A stretch of 22,257 nucleotides of DNA from a bacterium (GCA_030606215.1 JAUWGW010000026.1:1-22257), one strand, 5' to 3'. Numbered from the stretch's first letter, positions 2,761-12,097 are shown. Translations and numbers: made by a program. The notes: generated from the sequence alone by a model not told the origin.

Positions 2761-3477
2761 TTAGAAATGATATCCAAAGCCCATTGTATAAGCGGTTTCA
2801 TCAATAAACCTAACCTCAAAAAAGCCTGAAAACTTTTGATTAAAATCCATGCTTATTCCGGTGAATAAGCCGAGGTTTTCCTCTGACTTGAATGTTTCTT
2901 CTTCAGTGTTTCCGGAGGGCCAGGTGCGTTTCTGATTACATCTCACATGGGAGTATTTAGGGCCTCCGTAAAGGGTGAACGGCTCTAACTTTCTGGCTAT
3001 TTTAAGAGAGAACTGCCACTCGGTCCAGTCTATTGTTACCTCATGCGGGGTCTGGTGTTCTGTCATTGCGGCGGCGCCGGTTAACTTTCCATTCCCTGGT
3101 TCAAAAGTAAAATACTGGCAGGTTACATCTACTTTGAATTGTGAATTAGTAATTTCATAGCTTATCCCGGCACCATATGCAAACCGCTCGCTAAAAAAGT
3201 GGGTTTCACCTTCAAGACGATGAAGTTCCAGATTAGCTGCACCAGCTTTTCCGAAAAGAGTTATCTTATCTCCTATTGTGTAGCCTGCTGCAATCAGGTA
3301 ATGTTCCGAGCGAATTCTTGCAGTCTCAATACCTTTTACATCTCTATTCCTTAGCCAGGTGAATTCGTCTCTTAGAATAAACTTGCTGTTATCTCTGTCA
3401 TTACCCACGGTTACCGCATTTACAGCCACGTTGCTAAATAGTACGCAAAACAGAACTGTTATCAATGCTCTTTTCAC
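2761..3477 (-). CDS. Outer-membrane beta-barrel protein (paralogue B)
   Basis: Predicted 238-residue secreted protein. From GTG 3477 the product begins with KRALITVLFCVLFSNVAVNA, a signal peptide, followed by about 215 residues of alternating polar/apolar strands ending in the aromatic C-terminus GFGYHF, a typical barrel-assembly signal. The frame stays open upstream to 3564, but that start would overlap the preceding gene by more than 80 bp and bury the signal peptide. GTG 3477 lies 4 bp after that gene's stop and is preferred; there is no clear ribosome binding site. The C-terminus (RFIDETAYTMGFGYHF) aligns with that of the neighbouring barrel (RFVDEDAYTLGIHFTF), as does NLGLFTGISMDF with NLGVAVGVEIKF, so the two are diverged tandem paralogues. 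Length suggests a small barrel of roughly 8-12 strands. Its role is unknown: a structural protein or small channel are both possible. Confidence 0.8.
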   Translation of the reverse strand: MKRALITVLFCVLFSNVAVNAVTVGNDRDNSKFILRDEFTWLRNRDVKGIETARIRSEHYLIAAGYTIGDKITLFGKAGAANLELHRLEGETHFFSERFAYGAGISYEITNSQFKVDVTCQYFTFEPGNGKLTGAAAMTEHQTPHEVTIDWTEWQFSLKIARKLEPFTLYGGPKYSHVRCNQKRTWPSGNTEEETFKSEENLGLFTGISMDFNQKFSGFFEVRFIDETAYTMGFGYHF

Positions 3478-3481
3478 GTCG

Positions 3482-4222
3482 TTAAAATGTGAAATGTATT
3501 CCCAGAGTGTAGGCGTCTTCATCAACAAAACGTTTCTCCAGACATAAAGAGACTTTTTTAGCAAACTTTATTTCTACTCCGACAGCTACTCCTAAATTAT
3601 CCCTCTCCTTAAAACCGCCTATTCTTACTACCGGGGGACCTGCATGAGTGTATGGAATGGTAGATTCCGAATATCTAACGGCGCTATAGAAAAGACATCT
3701 ACTAAACTTCTTTGCCACATCCACAGATACATGCCACTCTTCCGATTTAGATGAGAACGGGTCTTTTCTACTATACCGGATGGCATTATCATTGTAAGAA
3801 TGTTGATACTGAAAACCTGCCCCGGTTGCAAGATTTCTTTGCAAGTTCTCGAAGAGCTTAACTCTAATTCCCAATCCCCATGTGTCCCCACTATCAAATC
3901 TCAGGCCAGGGTCACCGATGTTGTTTTCAGGCTCAAGGTCTAAGGTGGCTCTTCCAAACATGAAGTCCAATACTATATTTTCCTCCACTCCATATGAAAT
4001 TTTTCCAAGATTACGCTCGGATGAATCTATTATCCATAATGCTCCCCCATCATATTCAACAATACGCCGGTTGTCTACCTCTGTATATTCATAACCAGCA
4101 GTTAAATTTCCTTTTTCCGGAAAGTTTGCTATGTTGCCAGATACACTTGCAGAAGCATGCAGAGAGGGGAAAAAGAGTAGAATAAAGATGCAAATACATT
4201 TTCTGCTAACAGTTGTGTGCAT
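3482..4222 (-). CDS. Outer-membrane beta-barrel protein (paralogue A)
   Basis: 246 residues and first gene of the minus-strand operon. The N-terminus MHTTVSRKCICIFILLFFPSLHASA is a signal peptide with a likely signal peptidase I site after ASA. The mature part has alternating hydrophobic strands with glycine/aromatic turns (NLTAGYEYTEVD, AVGVEIKFAKKVSLCLEKRF) and ends in GIHFTF, the terminal-phenylalanine signal of outer-membrane barrels. ATG 4222 is preceded by GGAGAAG four bases upstream, so the start is well supported. It shares its C-terminal pattern with the next gene, showing an old tandem duplication. A strong promoter lies just upstream on this strand. The family is not one I can name. 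The function is unknown, though placement with envelope glycosyltransferase genes suggests an envelope role. Confidence 0.82.
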   Translation of the reverse strand: MHTTVSRKCICIFILLFFPSLHASASVSGNIANFPEKGNLTAGYEYTEVDNRRIVEYDGGALWIIDSSERNLGKISYGVEENIVLDFMFGRATLDLEPENNIGDPGLRFDSGDTWGLGIRVKLFENLQRNLATGAGFQYQHSYNDNAIRYSRKDPFSSKSEEWHVSVDVAKKFSRCLFYSAVRYSESTIPYTHAGPPVVRIGGFKERDNLGVAVGVEIKFAKKVSLCLEKRFVDEDAYTLGIHFTF

Positions 4223-4333: not shown

Positions 4334-5113
4334 ATGAAACAAAACTGGCAGGTTGAACTTTCTTCAAAATCGATTAAGAAGACCCAGAAATACGGGATAT
4401 TGAGCCAATTCATGCTGCGCTGTGACGGCAAATTATGCATGGAAATAGGTGCGGAAACAGGTGTGGTAACAAATTATCTTCGTCAGGAAAAGGGTGGGAG
4501 ATGGATTGCCGGAGTGCTTGCTGAGAAGTGGTATGACATCTCGCTTGAATTTTTGAAAAGAGATGTGCATCAAATTAATCCGACAGGGATTGATTTCCCG
4601 GATTCAACCTTTGACATTGTGCTTGCTTCAAGACCGGAACATATCTACGATGATACCATGTTTTTTCAGGAGATAAATAGAATCTTAAAACCTTCAGGGA
4701 GAATATTTATTCTGACTCCACACAATGAGCCGGAATTGTTCCTTAATAGACTTAAGGAGAAGATTGGGCTGACGCTGGAGCAGTATGACCATTATAGACC
4801 CGGATATGGAACTTGCGAGATGCAGGATAAATTGAGGAAAGCCGGGTTTGTGATGGAAAAAAGCGGAAGTTACTGCAGATTTTTCACTGAATTGATAGAA
4901 CTTCTCTTAAATGCCTCATATTCTTTCATTAGCAAAAGAAAAAAGAAATACGGTTCCTACCGGCCTGCGACCAGAGAGGAAATCAGCAAGAATAAGCTTG
5001 GTTATATGGTTTATAGTATGATATTCCCGCTTCTACGAGTTATCTCACTCCTTGATTACTTATTACCATTCACAGCTGGATATGTTCTTTATATGCAGGC
5101 TAAGAAAGAATGA
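4334..5113 (+). CDS. Class I SAM-dependent methyltransferase
   Basis: 259 residues with a Rossmann methyltransferase core. Motif I is CMEIGAETGVV (E37, G39, G43), which binds S-adenosylmethionine. It is followed by an acidic post-I region, a motif IV-like stretch (STFDIVLASRPEHIYDD) and the common LKPSGRIFILTPH strand near residues 117-129, as in Methyltransf_11-type enzymes. The C-terminal ~35 residues are hydrophobic (MIFPLLRVISLLDYLLPFTAGYVLYM), suggesting membrane association and a lipid-linked or membrane glycan substrate. ATG 4334 gives the expected helix before motif I; no ribosome binding site precedes it and the promoter -10 box lies 8 bp upstream, so it appears leaderless. It overlaps the next gene by 4 bp (ATGA), implying a coupled pair. 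The methyl acceptor cannot be told from the sequence. Confidence 0.85.
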   Translation: MKQNWQVELSSKSIKKTQKYGILSQFMLRCDGKLCMEIGAETGVVTNYLRQEKGGRWIAGVLAEKWYDISLEFLKRDVHQINPTGIDFPDSTFDIVLASRPEHIYDDTMFFQEINRILKPSGRIFILTPHNEPELFLNRLKEKIGLTLEQYDHYRPGYGTCEMQDKLRKAGFVMEKSGSYCRFFTELIELLLNASYSFISKRKKKYGSYRPATREEISKNKLGYMVYSMIFPLLRVISLLDYLLPFTAGYVLYMQAKKE

Positions 5114-6507
5114 GAGTCCTCTTCATTTATACTGATATCAACATTAAAGGCGGAGCAAGAAGTTTTAACTATGGTATTGCCATACTTTCTGCCATTCTGA
5201 AAAAACACGGACACGAAACAAATTTGTATTATATGTATCCACGCTATGAGACAAAGCATCTACCCCGAAAAGTTTTAGAGTTTGACCCACAGGTAGTTGC
5301 TTTTTATTCTACCACATCACAGTTCAGGTATGTGGAAAGGCTTCTAAAAGATATCCCTTTGAGAAAAGATGTCTTCACGATTTGTGGAGGACCTCACGTA
5401 ACGGTAGAGCCGGAAACATCTCTCCATGAAATTCCCCGTCTGGATGCTGTATGCCGCGGCGAAGGAGAATATCCCTTGCTGGAATTAGTAGAGACTCTTG
5501 AGAAAAACCGTGACATTACTAAAATAAAAAATATTTATGTAAAGAGAGATGGGGAAATTTGCAGGAATCCTTCAAGACCGTTTATAGAGAACCTCGATGA
5601 TTTACCTTTCCCTGACAGGGAACTCTTCCAGTATCAAAAAATCATTGATTCTGATTTTGGCACTGCCCTTTTTATGTTTGCTCGTGGTTGCCCGTTTAAC
5701 TGCTCTTACTGCAGTAATTACGCTTTAAGTAAAGTTCAGAGTGGTAAATATGTGCGGTTCCGAAGTGTGGAAAGCTGCATTACTGAAATAAAAGAGGTTC
5801 TGAACAACTATACGGCAAAAGCTATTTATGTTAACGATGACTTGTTTACGTTTAAAAAAGATTTTGTTTTTGAGTTCTGTGAGCGGTATAAGGAAGAGAT
5901 AGACCTGCCTTTTGACATCAATACAAGAGTTGGGTTCATTGATGAAGAAATTTGTGCCTGGCTGAAAGATGCAGGTTGCAGGAGGGTGAATATAGGAATT
6001 GAATCAGGCAGTCCCTATATTCGCAGCAAGGTACTCACCAGGAAAATGTCAAATGAAGAAATAATTAAAGCATTCCGAATTGTCCATGAAGCGGGATTGA
6101 AAACGAAGTCTTTTAACATGATTGGTTTTCCCGAAGAGACTCCCGAGCATTTTCAGGAGACAATAGAGTTGAATGCAAAGATCCATCCTGATAGTGTCAT
6201 ATTAAATGTGTTCGACCCCTATCCTGGAACAAAGTTAGGCGAGGTGTGCAAGAAGGAGAATTTAATTGATGTTGAAAGGGCAGGGAAAGACTTTATCCCA
6301 AAAACCGACACCGTGCTGAACCTACCAGATTTTCAAAGAGAAAAAATCCATCGCTTCTACAAAATATTTGCTTATGAAGTTTACAGGAAACAGTCTCTTA
6401 AAAAAGCAATATTTTACAGGGTTTATTATTCAGAAATTGGGGAGCTACTAATTCGCCTACTCTCTCCGTTCAAAAGTATCCTGCGCCGCATTACCATGGG
6501 AATATGA
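5110..6507 (+). CDS. B12-binding-domain radical SAM protein (first of two)
   Basis: 465 residues. The N-terminal ~140 residues match the cobalamin-binding Rossmann-like domain of this family (RVLFIYTDINIKGGARSFNYGIAILSA, later CGGPHVTVEPE), but no DxHxxG cobalt-ligand motif is present, as is common in these enzymes. The radical SAM domain follows with the CxxxCxxC cluster motif at C194, C198 and C201 (GCPFNCSYC), then the typical RRVNIGIESGS strand and MIGFPEETPEHF. The enzyme should bind a [4Fe-4S] cluster and SAM in the cytoplasm and perform a radical reaction, often methylation or rearrangement at an unreactive carbon. It is translationally coupled to the methyltransferase by a 4-bp overlap, suggesting the same substrate. 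The C-terminal ~100 residues are basic and of unclear role. Family assignment is firm; substrate is unknown. Confidence 0.88.
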   Translation: MRVLFIYTDINIKGGARSFNYGIAILSAILKKHGHETNLYYMYPRYETKHLPRKVLEFDPQVVAFYSTTSQFRYVERLLKDIPLRKDVFTICGGPHVTVEPETSLHEIPRLDAVCRGEGEYPLLELVETLEKNRDITKIKNIYVKRDGEICRNPSRPFIENLDDLPFPDRELFQYQKIIDSDFGTALFMFARGCPFNCSYCSNYALSKVQSGKYVRFRSVESCITEIKEVLNNYTAKAIYVNDDLFTFKKDFVFEFCERYKEEIDLPFDINTRVGFIDEEICAWLKDAGCRRVNIGIESGSPYIRSKVLTRKMSNEEIIKAFRIVHEAGLKTKSFNMIGFPEETPEHFQETIELNAKIHPDSVILNVFDPYPGTKLGEVCKKENLIDVERAGKDFIPKTDTVLNLPDFQREKIHRFYKIFAYEVYRKQSLKKAIFYRVYYSEIGELLIRLLSPFKSILRRITMGI

Positions 6508-6551: not shown

Positions 6552-6622
6552 TTGTCATTCTGAGTTGGGAATGTCGTTCTGAACGGAGCTTCTTGTCATT
6601 CTGAGCGTAGCGAAGAATCTCC
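6552..6622 (+). repeat. Palindromic-repeat left arms (three head-to-tail, partly degenerate)
   Basis: Three copies of the same arm occur in series: TTGTCATTCTGAG at 6552-6564, a variant TGTCGTTCTGAACGGAGC at 6572-6589, and the fullest copy at 6593-6622, running from TTGTCATTCTGAG to AAGAATCTCC. The same sequence forms the left half of the complete palindrome at 12035-12097, and its reverse complement is at 10934-10968. It ends directly at the ATG of the GIY-YIG gene. This is a dispersed intergenic palindromic (REP-like) family. The 44 bases between the radical SAM stop and this block hold nothing recognisable. Confidence 0.85.
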
Positions 6623-6907
6623 ATGAATGAATACTATGTTTACATCATGACCAATAAATCCAAAACCCTCTACACGGGTATTACTAATGACCTGGAGAGA
6701 CGTGTTTTTGAACACAAAAACCATTTGGTTGAAGGATTTACAAAGAAGTATAGGATTACAAAACTTATTTATTATGAAGCGACTAACGATGTACAGGAAG
6801 CAATCGCTCGGGAGAAGCAGATCAAGGGGTGGTTACGGAAAAAGAAGATTGCGCTCATCAAGTCAATGAATCCTGAATGGAGAGATTTAAGTAGTGAAAC
6901 CTCTTAG
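6623..6907 (+). CDS. GIY-YIG superfamily endonuclease, stand-alone single domain
   Basis: 94 residues, nearly all a GIY-YIG nuclease domain of the small UPF0213/YhbQ-like group. The first motif is YVYIM (residues 5-9), the second LYTGIT (16-21). R27 and H31 lie on the following helix (DLERRVFEHK), and E64 in AIAREKQIKGW is the expected metal-binding glutamate. The end NPEWRDLS is typical of this subfamily. All catalytic positions are present, so it should be an active DNA nuclease or nickase, although the family's physiological role is poorly known. Its ATG directly abuts a palindromic-repeat arm, with no good ribosome binding site. The stop lies inside the next gene (14-bp overlap), so it is linked to the restriction enzyme. 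Possible roles are a repeat-associated mobility or homing-type nuclease, or a repair enzyme; the choice is inference. Confidence 0.88.
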   Translation: MNEYYVYIMTNKSKTLYTGITNDLERRVFEHKNHLVEGFTKKYRITKLIYYEATNDVQEAIAREKQIKGWLRKKKIALIKSMNPEWRDLSSETS

Positions 6908-9900
6908 AACATATTTCAAGAGAATACTTGAAGTATCTATGCGAGGGGATGCGAGAGAAGAGAGTTACTACTCTTCTCTGGAAGATTTGCTCAAAAGTTA
7001 TGCTGAAGATACTGACAAAAAACATGTTTATATCACTACGCTCCCCAAAAAGACTGAAGCAGGCAATCCTGATTTTCGCATATGGGATGGAAAACAACAC
7101 ATAACTGGTTATGTTGAAGCAAAAGCCCCCACTACTGAAAATCTTGACCATATTGAGGAAACTGACCAACTTAAAAGATATCTTAAAACCTTTCCCAATT
7201 TAATCCTCACCAATTTCTTTGAATTCAGACTATACAGGAATGGCAGATTGCTTGATAAAGTGCAAATTGCCAGACCATTTATCGTTCATAAGTTGAAAAC
7301 TATTCCCCCAGTAGAAAAGGAAGATGAATTCTTTCATTTACTGGACCAATTTTTCTCCTTTTCCTTACCCAGAGTTTATTCAGCTAAATCACTTGCTATT
7401 GAACTTGCCAAGCGAACCAGTTTCCTGAAAGAGCAGGTTATAGCAGAGGAATTGAGAGAGGAAGAAGAGAAGAAAGGAAAGGGTTTTATCCTGGGATTCT
7501 ATGAGGCTTTTCAAAAACACCTTATTGCTGGACTCACCAAAGAAGATTTTGCAGACCTCTATTCTCAGACTATTACCTATGGATTATTTGCTGCAAGGAC
7601 GCGCTCTAAAAATGGTTTCAATCGCAAATTAGCTTATGATAATATTCCTGCTACTATTGGAATCCTTAGAGATGTGTTTGAATTTGTCTCTCTGGGTGAT
7701 TTACCACTCCAGATGGAGTGGATTGTAGATGATATTTCAGAAGTCCTATCAGTTACTGATGTGAATGGAATCCTTCACAAATATTTCCATGAAGGGAAAG
7801 GCAGAGACCCTATCATCCATTTCTACGAGACTTTTTTGGCAGAATATAATCCTTCTGAACGGGAGCGCAGAGGAGTTTATTATACGCCGGAATCTGTCGT
7901 CTCTTATGTTGCTCGCTCCATTAACATAATTCTAAAAGAACATTTTGATAGAGTAGGTGGATTTGCGAGCGAATCGGTTACAGTTTTAGACCCTGCTGCA
8001 GGAACACTCACCTTTTTAGCAGAGGCAGCTAAACTGGCGGTAGAAGAATTTGTCTCCGAATATGGTGAAGGTGCTAAAGCAAATTTTATCAAAGAGCATG
8101 TTCTGAAAAACTTCTATGCTTTTGAGTTGATGATGGCTCCTTATGCCGTGGGACATTTGAAGATGTCCTTTCTCCTGGAAGAACTCGGCTATAAACTGCG
8201 GAAAGATGACAGGTTTAAACTCTATCTGACCAATACGCTGGAGATGGAAGAGTTAGAAGAGACTTTCTTGCCTGGTATGTCATCGTTAGCTAAAGAGTCT
8301 CATTTAGCAGGAAGGGTAAAGAAGAAAACTCCGATTTTGGTCATACTTGGCAATCCTCCGTATTCAGGGCATTCTTCTAACGTAGGAGAATGGATTTTGA
8401 AGGAAAACAAGGCTTATTACCAGGTTGATGGTAAACCACTCGGGGAAAAGAATCCAAAGTGGCTGCAGGACGATTATGTCAAGTTCATCCGCTTTGCTCA
8501 ATGGAAGATAGACCAGGCAGGAGAGGGCGTTTTAGGGTTTATTACCAATCATAGTTACCTGGACAATCCTACATTCAGAGGAATGCGTCAGTCCTTGACG
8601 GACAGCTTCAATGAAATCTATCTGCTCGACTTACACGGCAACAGCTTGAAAAAGGAAAAATGTCCTGATGGCTCCAAAGATGAAAATGTTTTTGACATCC
8701 GACAAGGCGTGGCTATTGCTCTTTTCATAAAAAAGAAAGACAAGAAGAAAGAATGCAAGGTATACCGGTCAGAGCTTTGGGGATTGAGAGAAAACAAATA
8801 TGATTGGCTTTCAAAAAAGGATATAAGAACAACCAAGTGGAAGAAATTATCCCCAAAATCTGAATTTTATCTTTTCATCCCGAGAGATGAAAAGCTTTTA
8901 GGAAATTATGAGAGGTATCCCAAAATAACCAAAGTTTTCCAGGTGAATAGCGTTGGCATAGTAACATCAAGGGACGGTTTTGTGATAGACCCAGATAAAG
9001 AAGTGCTGAAACGGCGAATCAGAATGTTTTGCGATGGGAGAATGCCAGATACAATCGTCAGACAGACATTCAACTTAAAGGATAAACCAAACTGGAAATT
9101 AAAAGATGTGCGAGAAAAAGTAAGGAAAGATGAAAGCTGGGAGAAATCAATAACCAGAATTCTATACAGACCATTTGATATTCAATGGATCTTTTACCAT
9201 GATGAAGTGATTGAGCGCTCTCGCAAAGGCGTGATGCGTCATATGTTGCAAGGGAACTTGGCTCTATGTGTTGGTAGAGCAGGCCAAGTTGTCGGATTGG
9301 AAAAACCTTGGAATATTGTTTTCTGTTCCGATTGCATTGAAGATCTTAACTTATTCTATCGTGGTGGAAATGTAAATTTTTCCCTCTACCTCTACCCCGA
9401 CACGGACGAAAAAGACCTGTTCAGCCATGCGAAGGAGACAGAGGGAAGACGGCCGAATATTGACTCCGAACTTTTCGCTGCACTCTCTAAAGTTTATAAA
9501 AAGAAACCAACGCCGGAAGAGATTTTTTATTACATCTATGGGGTCATTTATTCCAATACTTATCGCACAAAATATGCTGAATTCTTAAAGATAGACTTTC
9601 CGAGGATTCCTTTCACAGGAAATTACAAATTGTTTGGCAAGATGGCTAAACATGGGAAAACACTCGTTGGTTTACATCTTCTAAAACCAGAAGAACTTGT
9701 CCCACTCATTGCAAAATTTCAGGGAAAGGGTGATTATGGAATTGAAAAGTTGAAATATGAGGAAGAAGAAAAACTCGTCTACATCAACCAGAACCAGTAC
9801 TTTGAAGGAATAGCGAGGAATGTCTGGGAATATCAAATCGGTGGTTATCAGGTCTTAAATAAATGGTTAAAAGACAGAAGAGGGAGGAAATTATCCCTTG

Positions 9901-10022
9901 ATGACATCAAACACTACTGCAAGATAGCCACCGCTTTGAAAAGGACAATAGAAATTCAAAAAGAGATAGACAGGATGTATCCCGAAGTTGAACGGGGGAT
10001 TGTTGAATTTCGAGGAGGATGA
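6894..10022 (+). CDS. Type IIG restriction-modification enzyme (fused nuclease, N6-adenine methylase, specificity domain)
   Basis: 1042 residues. An N-terminal PD-(D/E)xK nuclease is visible as NPD (58-60) and EAK (75-77). A helical linker leads to the N6-adenine methyltransferase: motif I DPAAGT (D366-T371) binds SAM and NPPY (487-490) is the catalytic motif IV. The C-terminal third, including YIYGVIYSNTYRTKYAEFLKIDFPRIPF (from about residue 878) and YQIGGYQVLNKWLKDR, resembles the specificity region of type ISP/IIG enzymes. The helicase found in type ISP proteins is absent, so it should cut without ATP-driven translocation. One chain would methylate and cleave an asymmetric site; the site is unknown. 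Start GTG 6894 has GGAGAG 9 nt upstream and overlaps the GIY-YIG gene by 14 bp. No separate methylase or specificity gene is nearby. The reading frame is intact. Confidence 0.92.
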   Translation: MKPLRTYFKRILEVSMRGDAREESYYSSLEDLLKSYAEDTDKKHVYITTLPKKTEAGNPDFRIWDGKQHITGYVEAKAPTTENLDHIEETDQLKRYLKTFPNLILTNFFEFRLYRNGRLLDKVQIARPFIVHKLKTIPPVEKEDEFFHLLDQFFSFSLPRVYSAKSLAIELAKRTSFLKEQVIAEELREEEEKKGKGFILGFYEAFQKHLIAGLTKEDFADLYSQTITYGLFAARTRSKNGFNRKLAYDNIPATIGILRDVFEFVSLGDLPLQMEWIVDDISEVLSVTDVNGILHKYFHEGKGRDPIIHFYETFLAEYNPSERERRGVYYTPESVVSYVARSINIILKEHFDRVGGFASESVTVLDPAAGTLTFLAEAAKLAVEEFVSEYGEGAKANFIKEHVLKNFYAFELMMAPYAVGHLKMSFLLEELGYKLRKDDRFKLYLTNTLEMEELEETFLPGMSSLAKESHLAGRVKKKTPILVILGNPPYSGHSSNVGEWILKENKAYYQVDGKPLGEKNPKWLQDDYVKFIRFAQWKIDQAGEGVLGFITNHSYLDNPTFRGMRQSLTDSFNEIYLLDLHGNSLKKEKCPDGSKDENVFDIRQGVAIALFIKKKDKKKECKVYRSELWGLRENKYDWLSKKDIRTTKWKKLSPKSEFYLFIPRDEKLLGNYERYPKITKVFQVNSVGIVTSRDGFVIDPDKEVLKRRIRMFCDGRMPDTIVRQTFNLKDKPNWKLKDVREKVRKDESWEKSITRILYRPFDIQWIFYHDEVIERSRKGVMRHMLQGNLALCVGRAGQVVGLEKPWNIVFCSDCIEDLNLFYRGGNVNFSLYLYPDTDEKDLFSHAKETEGRRPNIDSELFAALSKVYKKKPTPEEIFYYIYGVIYSNTYRTKYAEFLKIDFPRIPFTGNYKLFGKMAKHGKTLVGLHLLKPEELVPLIAKFQGKGDYGIEKLKYEEEEKLVYINQNQYFEGIARNVWEYQIGGYQVLNKWLKDRRGRKLSLDDIKHYCKIATALKRTIEIQKEIDRMYPEVERGIVEFRGG
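10012..10018 (+). promoter_or_regulatory. Strong ribosome binding site fixing a TTG start
   Basis: GAGGAGG lies in the last codons of the restriction gene, 5 nt before TTG 10024. It favours that start over the in-frame TTG at 9988, which has no comparable site. Confidence 0.7.
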
Positions 10023-10023
10023 T

Positions 10024-10737
10024 TTGAAAAATATTTTGCGGTTTCTTGGATCAGCTCAGAAAAAAACAACTTCTATGATACGTTTTCTTGATAAACATGA
10101 TGGTTCTCTCATCTTCCTTGCTACCTTTGCTTTGGCAATTATCACGTTTTTTTATCTTGTAGAAACCCACAAATCGAGAGAGCTAATAGAAGAAGACATG
10201 TATAGGCGGTCTTTGCCGGTTATGGTTTGCAATAATCCTGTAAATGAAAAACATGAAGGGAAAGTGATTACCAAAATCAAGGTTACAAATCATGGTGCAT
10301 CTGCTTTTAACGAAAATATAGTTGTTTTTTGGTTTGATGATGATCGACCTATTTTTGAGAATAGAGCTGTTGTGATTATTGAAGGGGCAAGAGTGCCTGC
10401 ATATCGGCTCCAACTCAATCATCCGCCCAATGTGTGGAGAGAAGTAACCTTAGGTTTTTCCAACATCAAACCTAAAATTAACAATCTTAATGATCTCTAT
10501 TTATTAGTGATCGTGAAATATAAAGTGCCCCTATCCGAAGAATGCCTATTCGAGAAATTCTGTTGTAAATATGAACCTGAGGATGATGTTGGTAAGTGGA
10601 AATATATTCCTATCTCTAAAGTGGAAGAGTTGTATGAGAAGGCAAGAACTTTTACTCTGGACAGTAAGGTTTATAGTAAAGAGGTGACTGAAGAAATAGA
10701 AACTTTTTTGAAAGAGTTTTTCCAAAAAAAGCTGTGA
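10024..10737 (+). CDS. Membrane-anchored protein of unknown function next to the restriction enzyme
   Basis: 237 residues from TTG 10024, chosen because of the GAGGAGG site 5 nt upstream; an in-frame TTG at 9988 would add 12 residues and overlap the restriction gene. After a basic N-terminal stretch there is one membrane segment (about residues 28-46, SLIFLATFALAIITFFYLV), then about 190 soluble residues. These contain beta-strand-like segments (KVITKIKVTNHGASAFNENIVVFWF, DLYLLVIVKYKVPL) that could form an Ig-like or similar sandwich, and end in a charged helical tail (EEIETFLKEFFQKKL). I do not recognise the family. The start is 1 bp past the restriction gene's stop, so the two are co-translated. 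That position is suggestive of a defence accessory or effector, but nothing in the sequence proves it. Confidence 0.75.
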   Translation: MKNILRFLGSAQKKTTSMIRFLDKHDGSLIFLATFALAIITFFYLVETHKSRELIEEDMYRRSLPVMVCNNPVNEKHEGKVITKIKVTNHGASAFNENIVVFWFDDDRPIFENRAVVIIEGARVPAYRLQLNHPPNVWREVTLGFSNIKPKINNLNDLYLLVIVKYKVPLSEECLFEKFCCKYEPEDDVGKWKYIPISKVEELYEKARTFTLDSKVYSKEVTEEIETFLKEFFQKKL

Positions 10738-10786
10738 GGGGTAAAATGAAATCTCAGAGTCGGACTTTAAGATTTAACAAAATTAT

Positions 10787-10912
10787 GGTGGGGTGGCAAA
10801 ACTCGGGTCCAGGTACCAGGTATGAGGTTGAAAAAGCCTGGGGCGTCAGGACAAGTCCTTTGGACTTAGAATCCAGTTTCTGGAGTGTCTACCTCTGTGG
10901 GTCTACCCCACC
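10787..10912. other. Hairpin-rich non-coding element with closing stem
   Basis: GGTGGGGT (10787-10794) and ACCCCACC (10905-10912) form a perfect 8-bp closing stem. Inside are AAGTCC-TTT-GGACTT (10853-10867), TCCAG-TTT-CTGGA (10872-10884) and CCAGG (twice, 10809-10820) able to pair with CCTGG (10837-10841). Two adjacent hairpins with TTT loops within a closed 126-nt unit suggest a folded RNA or a small palindromic mobile element. It fills part of the 310-base gap between the membrane protein and the epimerase. I cannot match it to a known RNA family. A coding reading (ATG 10746 to 10931) exists but looks incidental. Confidence 0.5.
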
Positions 10913-10933
10913 CCGCTGTGATATAACATGAAT

Positions 10934-11042
10934 GAGATTCTTCGTCGCTTCGCTCCTCAGAATGACAGTATGAGGCTTACGCTCAGACTTGTCCTGAGTG
11001 AAACGAAGGGATGACAGTGTACAGTATAATGACAGTATGAGG
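10934..11042 (-). repeat. Palindromic-repeat right arms and derivatives
   Basis: The stretch 10934-10968, running from GAGATTCTTCG to CAGAATGACAG, is the reverse-complement version of the arm in front of the GIY-YIG gene. A related arm beginning TTGTCCTGAGTG follows at 10989-11017. The 15-mer AATGACAGTATGAGG occurs twice, at 10961-10975 and 11028-11042; the second copy ends 5 nt before the preferred start of the epimerase gene and supplies its GAGG ribosome binding site. The whole gap is thus repeat-derived. Confidence 0.8.
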
Positions 11043-11047
11043 TTGTG

Positions 11048-12028
11048 TTGAGAATATTAGTTACGGGTTCTTCAGGTTTTATTGGAAGTAATCTGGTGGA
11101 TTTCTTGTTGAAGGAAGGTTACACTGTAAGGGGTTTGGATGAAGGGAGAAGAGAGTTTGGAACAGCCCCACCGCAAAGGAATTCTTATGAAGAGCTGATT
11201 GGTGACATAACTCAAGAAGAGGTTGTCAGACAAGCTACCGAAAATATTGATGTGATATTTCACTTAGCAAGCCTTGTTACGCAGGCAAACGTTCCGGAAA
11301 AGAGATACTGGGAAGTGAATGTCGGAGGGACAGAAAATTTACTACACGCTTCTAAAGAAGCTGGCATAAAACGTTTCATTTACTGCAGTACAGATAGCGT
11401 GATAGGAGAGATTTGTCGTCCTCCAGCGAGGGAAACAGATACTCCTCGTCCGGAGAATATCTATGGAATTACGAAATATGAAGCGGAAAAGAAAGTTCTT
11501 GAGTATTCTAAGCATATGTCTGTAGTCATCATTCGTCCCACAAGGGTTTATGGTCCGGGAGACCGGAGGATGCTTGAGATATTTAAGAGGATTAAACAGG
11601 GCAAGTTTTTCTTGATAGGCAGGGGACAAACTCTCTTCCATCCTGTCTATATAAGTGACTGCCTGCAAGGATTTAAACTTGCGCTGGAGGTGAAAGGTGC
11701 TGAAGGAGAAATATTTAACATAGGGGGAGAGGAACCTGTTAAGATAAAATACTTCCTGAATGTAGCGGCAAAAGAGCTTGGCGTAAAAATTGGTAAAATC
11801 TACTTTCCCTGCTTCTTTGCTAAAGCCATTGCAGTTATTCTGGAGAGGTGTTGTCCCATTGCAGGTATTACTCCACCTTTTACAAGGAGAAATTTGGAGT
11901 TTTTTACCAAAACACGCAGTTATGATATTTCCAAAGCGAGGAAGATATTAGGTTATAAGCCGGATGTGGGTGTCGAAGACGGGGTAAAGAAAACAATTCA
12001 ATGGTACAGGGAGAAGGGATACCTTTGA
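11048..12028 (+). CDS. NAD-dependent epimerase/dehydratase (extended SDR)
   Basis: 326 residues. The N-terminus RILVTGSSGFIGSNLVDFLLKEG carries the NAD(P)-binding GxxGxxG (G7, G10, G13). The catalytic YxxxK is Y139/K143 (YGITKYEAEK), with an upstream CSTDSVIG strand supplying the usual Ser/Thr. RPTRVYGPGDRRMLE and DISKARKILGYKP near the C-terminus are typical of nucleotide-sugar epimerases/dehydratases and the related 3-beta-HSD-like reductases. It probably converts a nucleotide sugar for the downstream glycosyltransferases. Start: TTG 11048 is spaced 5 nt from GAGG; the frame also offers GTG 11045, only 2 nt away. It lies just downstream of the repeat-rich gap and upstream of a full palindrome, so it may be transcribed separately from the later genes. 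The exact substrate cannot be read from sequence. Confidence 0.87.
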   Translation: MRILVTGSSGFIGSNLVDFLLKEGYTVRGLDEGRREFGTAPPQRNSYEELIGDITQEEVVRQATENIDVIFHLASLVTQANVPEKRYWEVNVGGTENLLHASKEAGIKRFIYCSTDSVIGEICRPPARETDTPRPENIYGITKYEAEKKVLEYSKHMSVVIIRPTRVYGPGDRRMLEIFKRIKQGKFFLIGRGQTLFHPVYISDCLQGFKLALEVKGAEGEIFNIGGEEPVKIKYFLNVAAKELGVKIGKIYFPCFFAKAIAVILERCCPIAGITPPFTRRNLEFFTKTRSYDISKARKILGYKPDVGVEDGVKKTIQWYREKGYL

Positions 12029-12034
12029 CCTTAT

Positions 12035-12097
12035 TGTCATTCTGAACGGAGTGAAGAATCTACGAAAGATTCTTCGGGCTTTGCCCTCAGAATGACA
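12035..12097. repeat. Complete intergenic palindrome of the REP-like family
   Basis: The outer arms TGTCATTCTGA (12035-12045) and TCAGAATGACA (12087-12097) pair perfectly. The inner arms AAGAATCT (12054-12061) and AGATTCTT (12067-12074) also pair perfectly around a 5-nt loop, with less regular sequence between them. It starts 6 bp after the epimerase stop. The hairpin could slow or stop transcription, but no T-run follows, so it is not a classical intrinsic terminator. Confidence 0.88.

Follow-up and report, generated by a model that had tools for sequence, protein, structure and literature searches.

Architecture of the three-gene block

The window analysed here, a stretch of 22,257 nucleotides that represents contig C34 of the 1.52-Mb bacterial genome G000, contains three genes located between a radical SAM gene and an epimerase gene, all on the plus strand and enclosed by a pair of inverted repeat arms. 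This locus raises the question of what the arms delimit and which of the enclosed genes belongs with them. The initial annotation described both the arms around the three genes and the tight coupling of these genes, and our analysis recovered each of these features, including the 14-bp overlap between the GIY-YIG and type IIG genes and the 1-bp gap between the type IIG gene and the third ORF (Table 1). The third ORF starts with a TTG codon at position 10,024, the longest possible ORF extending from position 9,988. The G+C content of the block was not odd and no sign of foreign composition was seen within it.

Table 1. Positions of the genes and repeats at the block and of the reference dimer in the same window.
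Feature	Position	Strand	Remarks
Radical SAM gene	5110-6507		Flanks the block on the left
Two partial REP-like fragments (GTCATTCTGAG..., GTCGTTCTGAACGGAG...)	6554-6594	+	Just outside the left arm; REP-like by sequence
Left arm, short-type REP GTCATTCTGAGCGTAGCGAAGAATCTC	6595-6621	+	Tag outward; identical arm in the G000:C21:6171 dimer
Direct repeat CATGAATGA, left copy	6622-6630	+	Inner edge of the left arm
GIY-YIG nuclease, 94 aa, single domain	6623-6907	+	PF01541, E 1.9e-16
Type IIG restriction-modification enzyme (putative cargo)	6894-10022	+	PADLOC REase_MTase_IIG, E 2e-264; Type_ISP_C, E 1.5e-92; N6_Mtase
Third ORF, apparent N-terminal membrane segment (putative cargo)	10024-10737	+	Matches no family
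Direct repeat CATGAATGA, right copy	10927-10935	+	Inner edge of the right arm
Right arm, long-type REP GTCATTCTGAGGAGCGAAGCGACGAAGAATCT	10935-10966	-	Tag outward
Epimerase gene	11045-12028		Flanks the block on the right
Complete, unsplit REP heterodimer belonging to this family	12036-12096	+	In-window reference for the unoccupied state

The window arms and dispersed REP dimers

The short-arm pattern gave 19 matches across the genome when up to three mismatches were allowed (reversed control, 0 matches), so copies of the arms also lie outside this locus. Most copies are found in dimers of 60–75 bp in which just a few nucleotides separate a short arm from an inverted long arm, and we identified 12 distinct dimers of this type elsewhere in the genome. 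The dimer at G000:C21:6171-6233 carries both window arms, separated by the spacer TATG. Because the left arm of the window is of the short type, the right arm is of the long type and the C21 dimer combines the two, the block appears from these sequence comparisons to lie within one split REP heterodimer, not between two unrelated repeats.

The 9-mer CATGAATGA occurs twice in the whole window, once at the inner edge of each arm, and the start codon of the GIY-YIG gene, almost directly after the left arm, falls within the left copy. A shared 9-mer was found in 0.5% of trials with random window pairs of equal size. This pair of direct repeats may represent an insertion footprint; direct repeats bounding the insertion could not be resolved in the Azospirillum and G003 elements described below.

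The GIY-YIG protein

Assignment of the small nuclease to the GIY-YIG superfamily is supported by the PF01541 match, by its fold and by the catalytic residues Y7, Y17, R27, E64 and N83, all of which are present in the window copy. Y17, R27, E64 and N83 are invariant and Y7 is nearly so in an alignment of homologues that leaves out three broken GIY copies with in-frame stops. The AF2 model of the protein (pLDDT 94) suggests little beyond the catalytic fold and short helices. The closest folds to this model were those of UPF0213 proteins (1zg2, 1ywl), of Slx1 and of the catalytic domains of I-TevI and UvrC, with Z scores of 7.7 to 6.0 for UPF0213 and Slx1 and 6.1 for I-TevI. GIY-YIG enzymes are in general hydrolytic, and transposase-like strand transfer by this protein would therefore be unlikely.

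Recurrence of the arm-flanked nuclease gene

An outward-tagged inverted arm pair was present at 35 of the 70 close GIY-YIG homologues with enough flanking sequence, compared with 1 of 105 comparison genes, which were other ORFs with non-coding flanks from the same loci (Fisher 3.8e-16). Arm pairs were scored up to 150 nt upstream and up to 200 nt downstream of the gene, and the same tag motif yielded a pair in 2% of random windows. A strict hairpin detector returned tag-out pairs at 7 of the 70 GIY loci and at 0 of 2,433 comparisons. The first such detector proved too strict for imperfect arms, and a looser version still misses those of the window. Since hairpin detectors overlook imperfect arms, the main test relied on the plain tag motif, which was scored against matched controls.

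The association of the arm pair with GIY-YIG genes spans many phyla. It was seen again in a second sample taken from 241 genomes, in which 19 loci were locatable and 13 of these had the pair. Among GIY-YIG genes below 45% identity, the pair was found at 2 of 16, and it was found at none of the 13 distant viral GIY-YIG genes used as a control on viral contigs. Ordinary units enclose the GIY gene alone and measure 327–551 bp from tag to tag (median 400), compared with 4,372 bp in the window; of the 80 loci, L114 alone looked like a unit with a clearly displaced right arm. Some loci contain two closely spaced GIY-YIG genes (L143, 6001-6258 and 6598-6873; L125, with a second copy at 2699-2959). 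At the Neisseria gonorrhoeae locus L238 (around 3001-3255), the dRS3 repeats closest to the GIY-YIG gene face inward instead of outward.

Arm sequences and their co-occurrence with the nuclease

Arm sequences differ widely among genomes (GTCATTCTGAG..GAAGAATCT, GTCATCCTGAG..GAAGGATCT, GTCATTCCCGC..GCGGGAATCCA, GTCATTTCGACC..GAAATC and GTCATTGCGAG..GCAATCT); the left and right arms of each locus are alike (p=2e-4), and the arm type weakly tracks the similarity of the GIY protein (p=0.014). The arm pattern of one element was detected in 3 of the 113 genomes of its class, which are exactly the three best GIY matches, the count in one of these genomes including the element's own two arms. Arms of the window type and a GIY gene occur together in 15 of 241 genomes, against 6.9 expected (p=6e-4), and the odds ratio for their co-occurrence in these 241 genomes reached 9.9 at 15 or more arm copies.

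The arms of these elements generally carry the tag that is characteristic of CGTC REPs, an unpaired (C/T)GTC or CCTC at one end. GTCAT is enriched beside GIY genes, and CGTC tags were found next to them in Rhizobium, Sinorhizobium, Shinella, Azospirillum and Sphingobium. A subset of the arms also features the stem of 8–9 bp starting with AT, the loop of 4–5 nt and the CCA tail, as exemplified by CGTC-ATCCTCGGG-CTTGA-CCCGAGGAT-CCA (fold z −4.9).

Presence and absence at orthologous sites

The GIY unit of G003 is absent at the orthologous site of G000, where the conserved blocks lie 22 bp apart versus nearly 500. In Azospirillum lipoferum 4B, a unit located between sufB and sufC is absent in three relatives that are approximately 95–96% identical in this region. 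Neither the Azospirillum nor the G000 empty site contained a palindrome or REP. For the Shinella sp. PSBB067 sequence NZ_CP069303.1, the coordinates (approximately 1538249-1540898) likewise point to a GIY-YIG gene that separates sufB from sufC, a possible case of repeated insertion at one site.

The initial annotation had predicted that an empty site would retain a single palindrome, and this configuration was encountered for two other elements, in Sphingobium and Sinorhizobium. Sphingobium TomMM7A and TomTYG46 carry the unit between fnrL and a response-regulator gene, whereas TomTYG64 and TomTYG74 have one palindrome at this site instead. The TomTYG64 palindrome, CGTC-ACCCCGGG-TCAAG-CCCGGGGT-GACG, is composed of the outer halves of the left and right arms. 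A junction of this type is also found in Sinorhizobium K101, at the site where the arms of S. meliloti Ak57 enclose part of a GIY gene. Such a palindrome could represent a target prior to insertion, a product of excision or the outcome of passive deletion between repeated half-stems. The recurrence of the arm-flanked gene across phyla, together with its presence or absence at orthologous sites, favours the earlier suggestion of the small nuclease as mobiliser, a role that we consider likely.

For the window block itself, the comparison was with G003, the only close relative. There, a radical SAM orthologue with 80% identity is followed by unrelated genes, the epimerase orthologue is on a different contig and the block is absent. 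As the two orthologues reside on separate contigs, the G000 junction corresponds to a synteny break, and no clean empty site for the block was found in this rearranged relative.

The type IIG gene and the third ORF

The type IIG enzyme is a full-length member of its class, combining nuclease, N6-methylase and specificity functions in one chain, with the nuclease part recognised solely through whole-length PADLOC models. None of its 29 homologues, which are up to 73% identical, had a GIY-YIG neighbour within the fetched flanks, so the type IIG gene does not form the core of the unit. A hairpin REP was found on any side of 1 of the 20 homologues with scored flanks, giving no enrichment of arms. 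The most plausible reading of the type IIG gene is cargo acquired after the stop codon of the nuclease and before the right arm, and the restriction gene of the window looks like a one-off passenger. The proposal that the arms are the ends of a mobile defence unit thus stood in part: the arms as unit ends are supported by the recurrence across phyla and by presence and absence, whereas the defence component found no support among the type IIG homologues or in the ordinary units, which hold the GIY gene alone.

No family match was found for the third ORF in Pfam, PADLOC, NCBIfam or PHROG, nor a confident match in the PDB; weak protocadherin-15-like matches (E 0.18) were set aside. A GIY-YIG gene 77% identical to that of the window is present in REP-rich DNA of a Planktothrix agardhii plasmid (L237, 4001-4285), with a type IIL MmeI gene on one side and DISARM drmA on the other, which makes it a second case near defence genes.

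A proposed REP-GIY element and its alternatives

Taken together, we consider it probable that the block is a REP-GIY element, in which the nuclease cuts the REPs of its own genome and repair copies or excises the unit, and that the window holds a copy with cargo. An element of this kind would comprise a free-standing, single-domain GIY-YIG gene inside outward-tagged inverted REP arms, with the dispersed REP dimers as its gene-less counterparts. The nuclease probably recognises a hairpin or cruciform formed by these REPs and cuts there. Repair would then duplicate or remove everything between the outer half-arms, and an empty site would be left with one palindrome. The type IIG and membrane-protein genes of the window unit would be extra cargo, placed after the nuclease stop codon and ahead of the right arm. 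Whereas the architecture of the unit, its recurrence, the matching of its arms and its presence and absence were observed, REP cutting by the enzyme, the mechanism of mobility and the order of events are inferred.

Several observations count against a REP-GIY element. Taken singly, the window arms fold weakly (z −0.24 and +1.55, DNA parameters). The whole dimer, evaluated with RNA parameters as opposed to the DNA parameters applied to single arms, folds far better, so the dimer cruciform would be the likelier nuclease substrate in the window genome. Near GIY genes, some arms are clustered or face the opposite way, and the dRS3 repeats at L238 face inward. The palindrome-free empty sites of Azospirillum and G000 give no indication of insertion into an existing REP, and passive deletion could account for the single palindromes. 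Finally, the genomes G299 (140 copies), G021, G259 and G040 are rich in window-type arms and had no close GIY-YIG gene at E 1e-15, which may reflect a partner that has diverged or repeats that are relics.

A homing-like alternative is a selfish gene that would cut REP dimers lacking it and be copied in by repair, as a parasite of REPs that are spread by other means. The gene sits in the middle of its would-be target as in such genes, the modelled fold resembles that of I-TevI, unoccupied dimers are numerous and single palindromes mark two empty sites. We nevertheless regard this explanation as unlikely, because the G000 and Azospirillum empty sites contain no REP, the arms offer just about 30 bp of homology and the REP families vary among genomes in step with the gene. 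Passive association, whereby REPs gather between genes and a small mobile gene lands among them or is carried along by REP-REP recombination, would fit the intergenic position of REPs and the location of the window at a synteny break relative to G003. It is made improbable by the specific orientation and left-right matching of the arms and by the lack of flanking arms at comparably situated genes, both the other genes with intergenic flanks and the type IIG genes, and also at most distant GIY-YIG genes.

We judge an exchangeable or mobile restriction-defence unit, bounded by its own arms and helped by the nuclease, to be quite doubtful as well. The enclosure of the type IIG gene by complementary halves of one dimer would agree with it, as would the setting of the related GIY-YIG gene on the Planktothrix plasmid; against it stand the type IIG homologues, the normal units that carry no cargo and the scattering of the arms over the genome. 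Membership of the type IIG gene in the recurring unit was rejected, recurrent arm enclosure or GIY adjacency having been seen for 0 of the 29 homologues. Transcription termination or mRNA stabilisation has been proposed for REPs (PMC3733652) and some REP hairpins do fold strongly, yet it is very improbable that the arms are mere terminators or stabilisers of the small gene, given that termination has no need of a mirror-oriented upstream arm and that the arms match repeats scattered through their own genome, their gain or loss accompanying that of the gene.

Comparison with known systems

CGTC-tagged REPs, which include Neisseria dRS3 and Rickettsia RPE-4 and RPE-6, were described without a dedicated transposase (Di Nocera et al, 2013; PMC3733652). 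Many GIY arms share with them the CGTC or TGTC tag, the AT-start stem, the CCA tail and the arrangement in inverted dimers, and A. lipoferum and S. meliloti, both listed as hosts of CGTC REPs (PMC3733652), have such REPs adjoining the GIY gene. Judged by sequence, the window arms are related to CGTC REPs only, since they keep the TGTC tag and the AT start but have a shorter, mismatched stem of 5 bp in place of 8–9 bp and the tail CTC in place of CCA. Given the pairing of arms and GIY genes in many phyla, the enzyme may be the missing partner of a large repeat family, with a role like that of RAYT for GTAG REPs. We see an even chance that nucleases of approximately 90 residues from the GIY-YIG superfamily are the missing enzymes that spread or maintain CGTC-type REPs, through structure-selective cutting and repair and with occasional cargo.

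The layout resembles that of REPtrons (RAYT/TnpA-REP), in which the gene of a small DNA-processing enzyme is likewise flanked by inverted REPs of its own genome's family and gene-less dimers are dispersed in the genome. The likeness is in layout alone: REPtrons encode an HUH/Y1 tyrosine transposase and their repeats are tagged GTAG, whereas the window gene encodes a GIY-YIG protein and the repeats of GIY elements are tagged (C/T)GTC. Free-standing GIY-YIG homing endonucleases have in common with the window protein the catalytic fold, as in the I-TevI catalytic domain, and the location of the gene inside a palindromic candidate target; the position of the GIY gene within the putative split dimer is consistent with interruption of such a site. 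However, the window protein has no separate DNA-binding domain and its candidate target is a multi-copy repeat. Slx1, a structure-selective nuclease acting on branched DNA, has a fold near that of the window model but works with a partner and an extra domain. The UPF0213 proteins are among the nearest folds, and the more distant GIY-YIG homologues are mostly not flanked by REPs. The type IIG enzymes stand outside the recurring unit.

We found nothing in the open-access literature, to which the search was confined, that links GIY-YIG proteins to REPs or related intergenic repeats. Later open-access papers citing PMC3733652 make no mention of GIY-YIG enzymes, and a literal search of this literature with the window arm sequence returned unrelated papers only. 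The CGTC-REP superfamily occurs in many genomes and was described in 2013 as having no dedicated transposase; the tie to GIY-YIG genes makes the question of its enzyme directly testable and suggests a likely function for a common uncharacterised gene. If correct, it would add a second enzymatic route, beside that of RAYTs, for short palindromes to colonise the chromosomes of bacteria, and the GIY-REP unit could explain small recurrent insertions between conserved genes.

Additional repeats and duplicated genes

Larger inverted repeats (GTAGTGTTTCA.., GTAAATATTCGGTGAACCGTG..) surround the dimer at G000:C21:6171-6233 (L003) as well as several other REP dimers, and may represent an additional level of miniature elements. 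A different repeat, CTTCTCGACAGGCTCGAAG, borders an interrupted and more distantly related GIY-YIG gene at L036 (G003:C65). The window also contains a 300-nt direct repeat with 83% identity (positions 10-309 and 2336-2635) that corresponds to a duplicated N-terminal part of a large membrane-protein ORF (403-2757). The adjacent ORFs 2761-3564 and 3482-4222 are of similar size with similar C-terminal ends and are possibly a pair of outer-membrane barrel paralogues.
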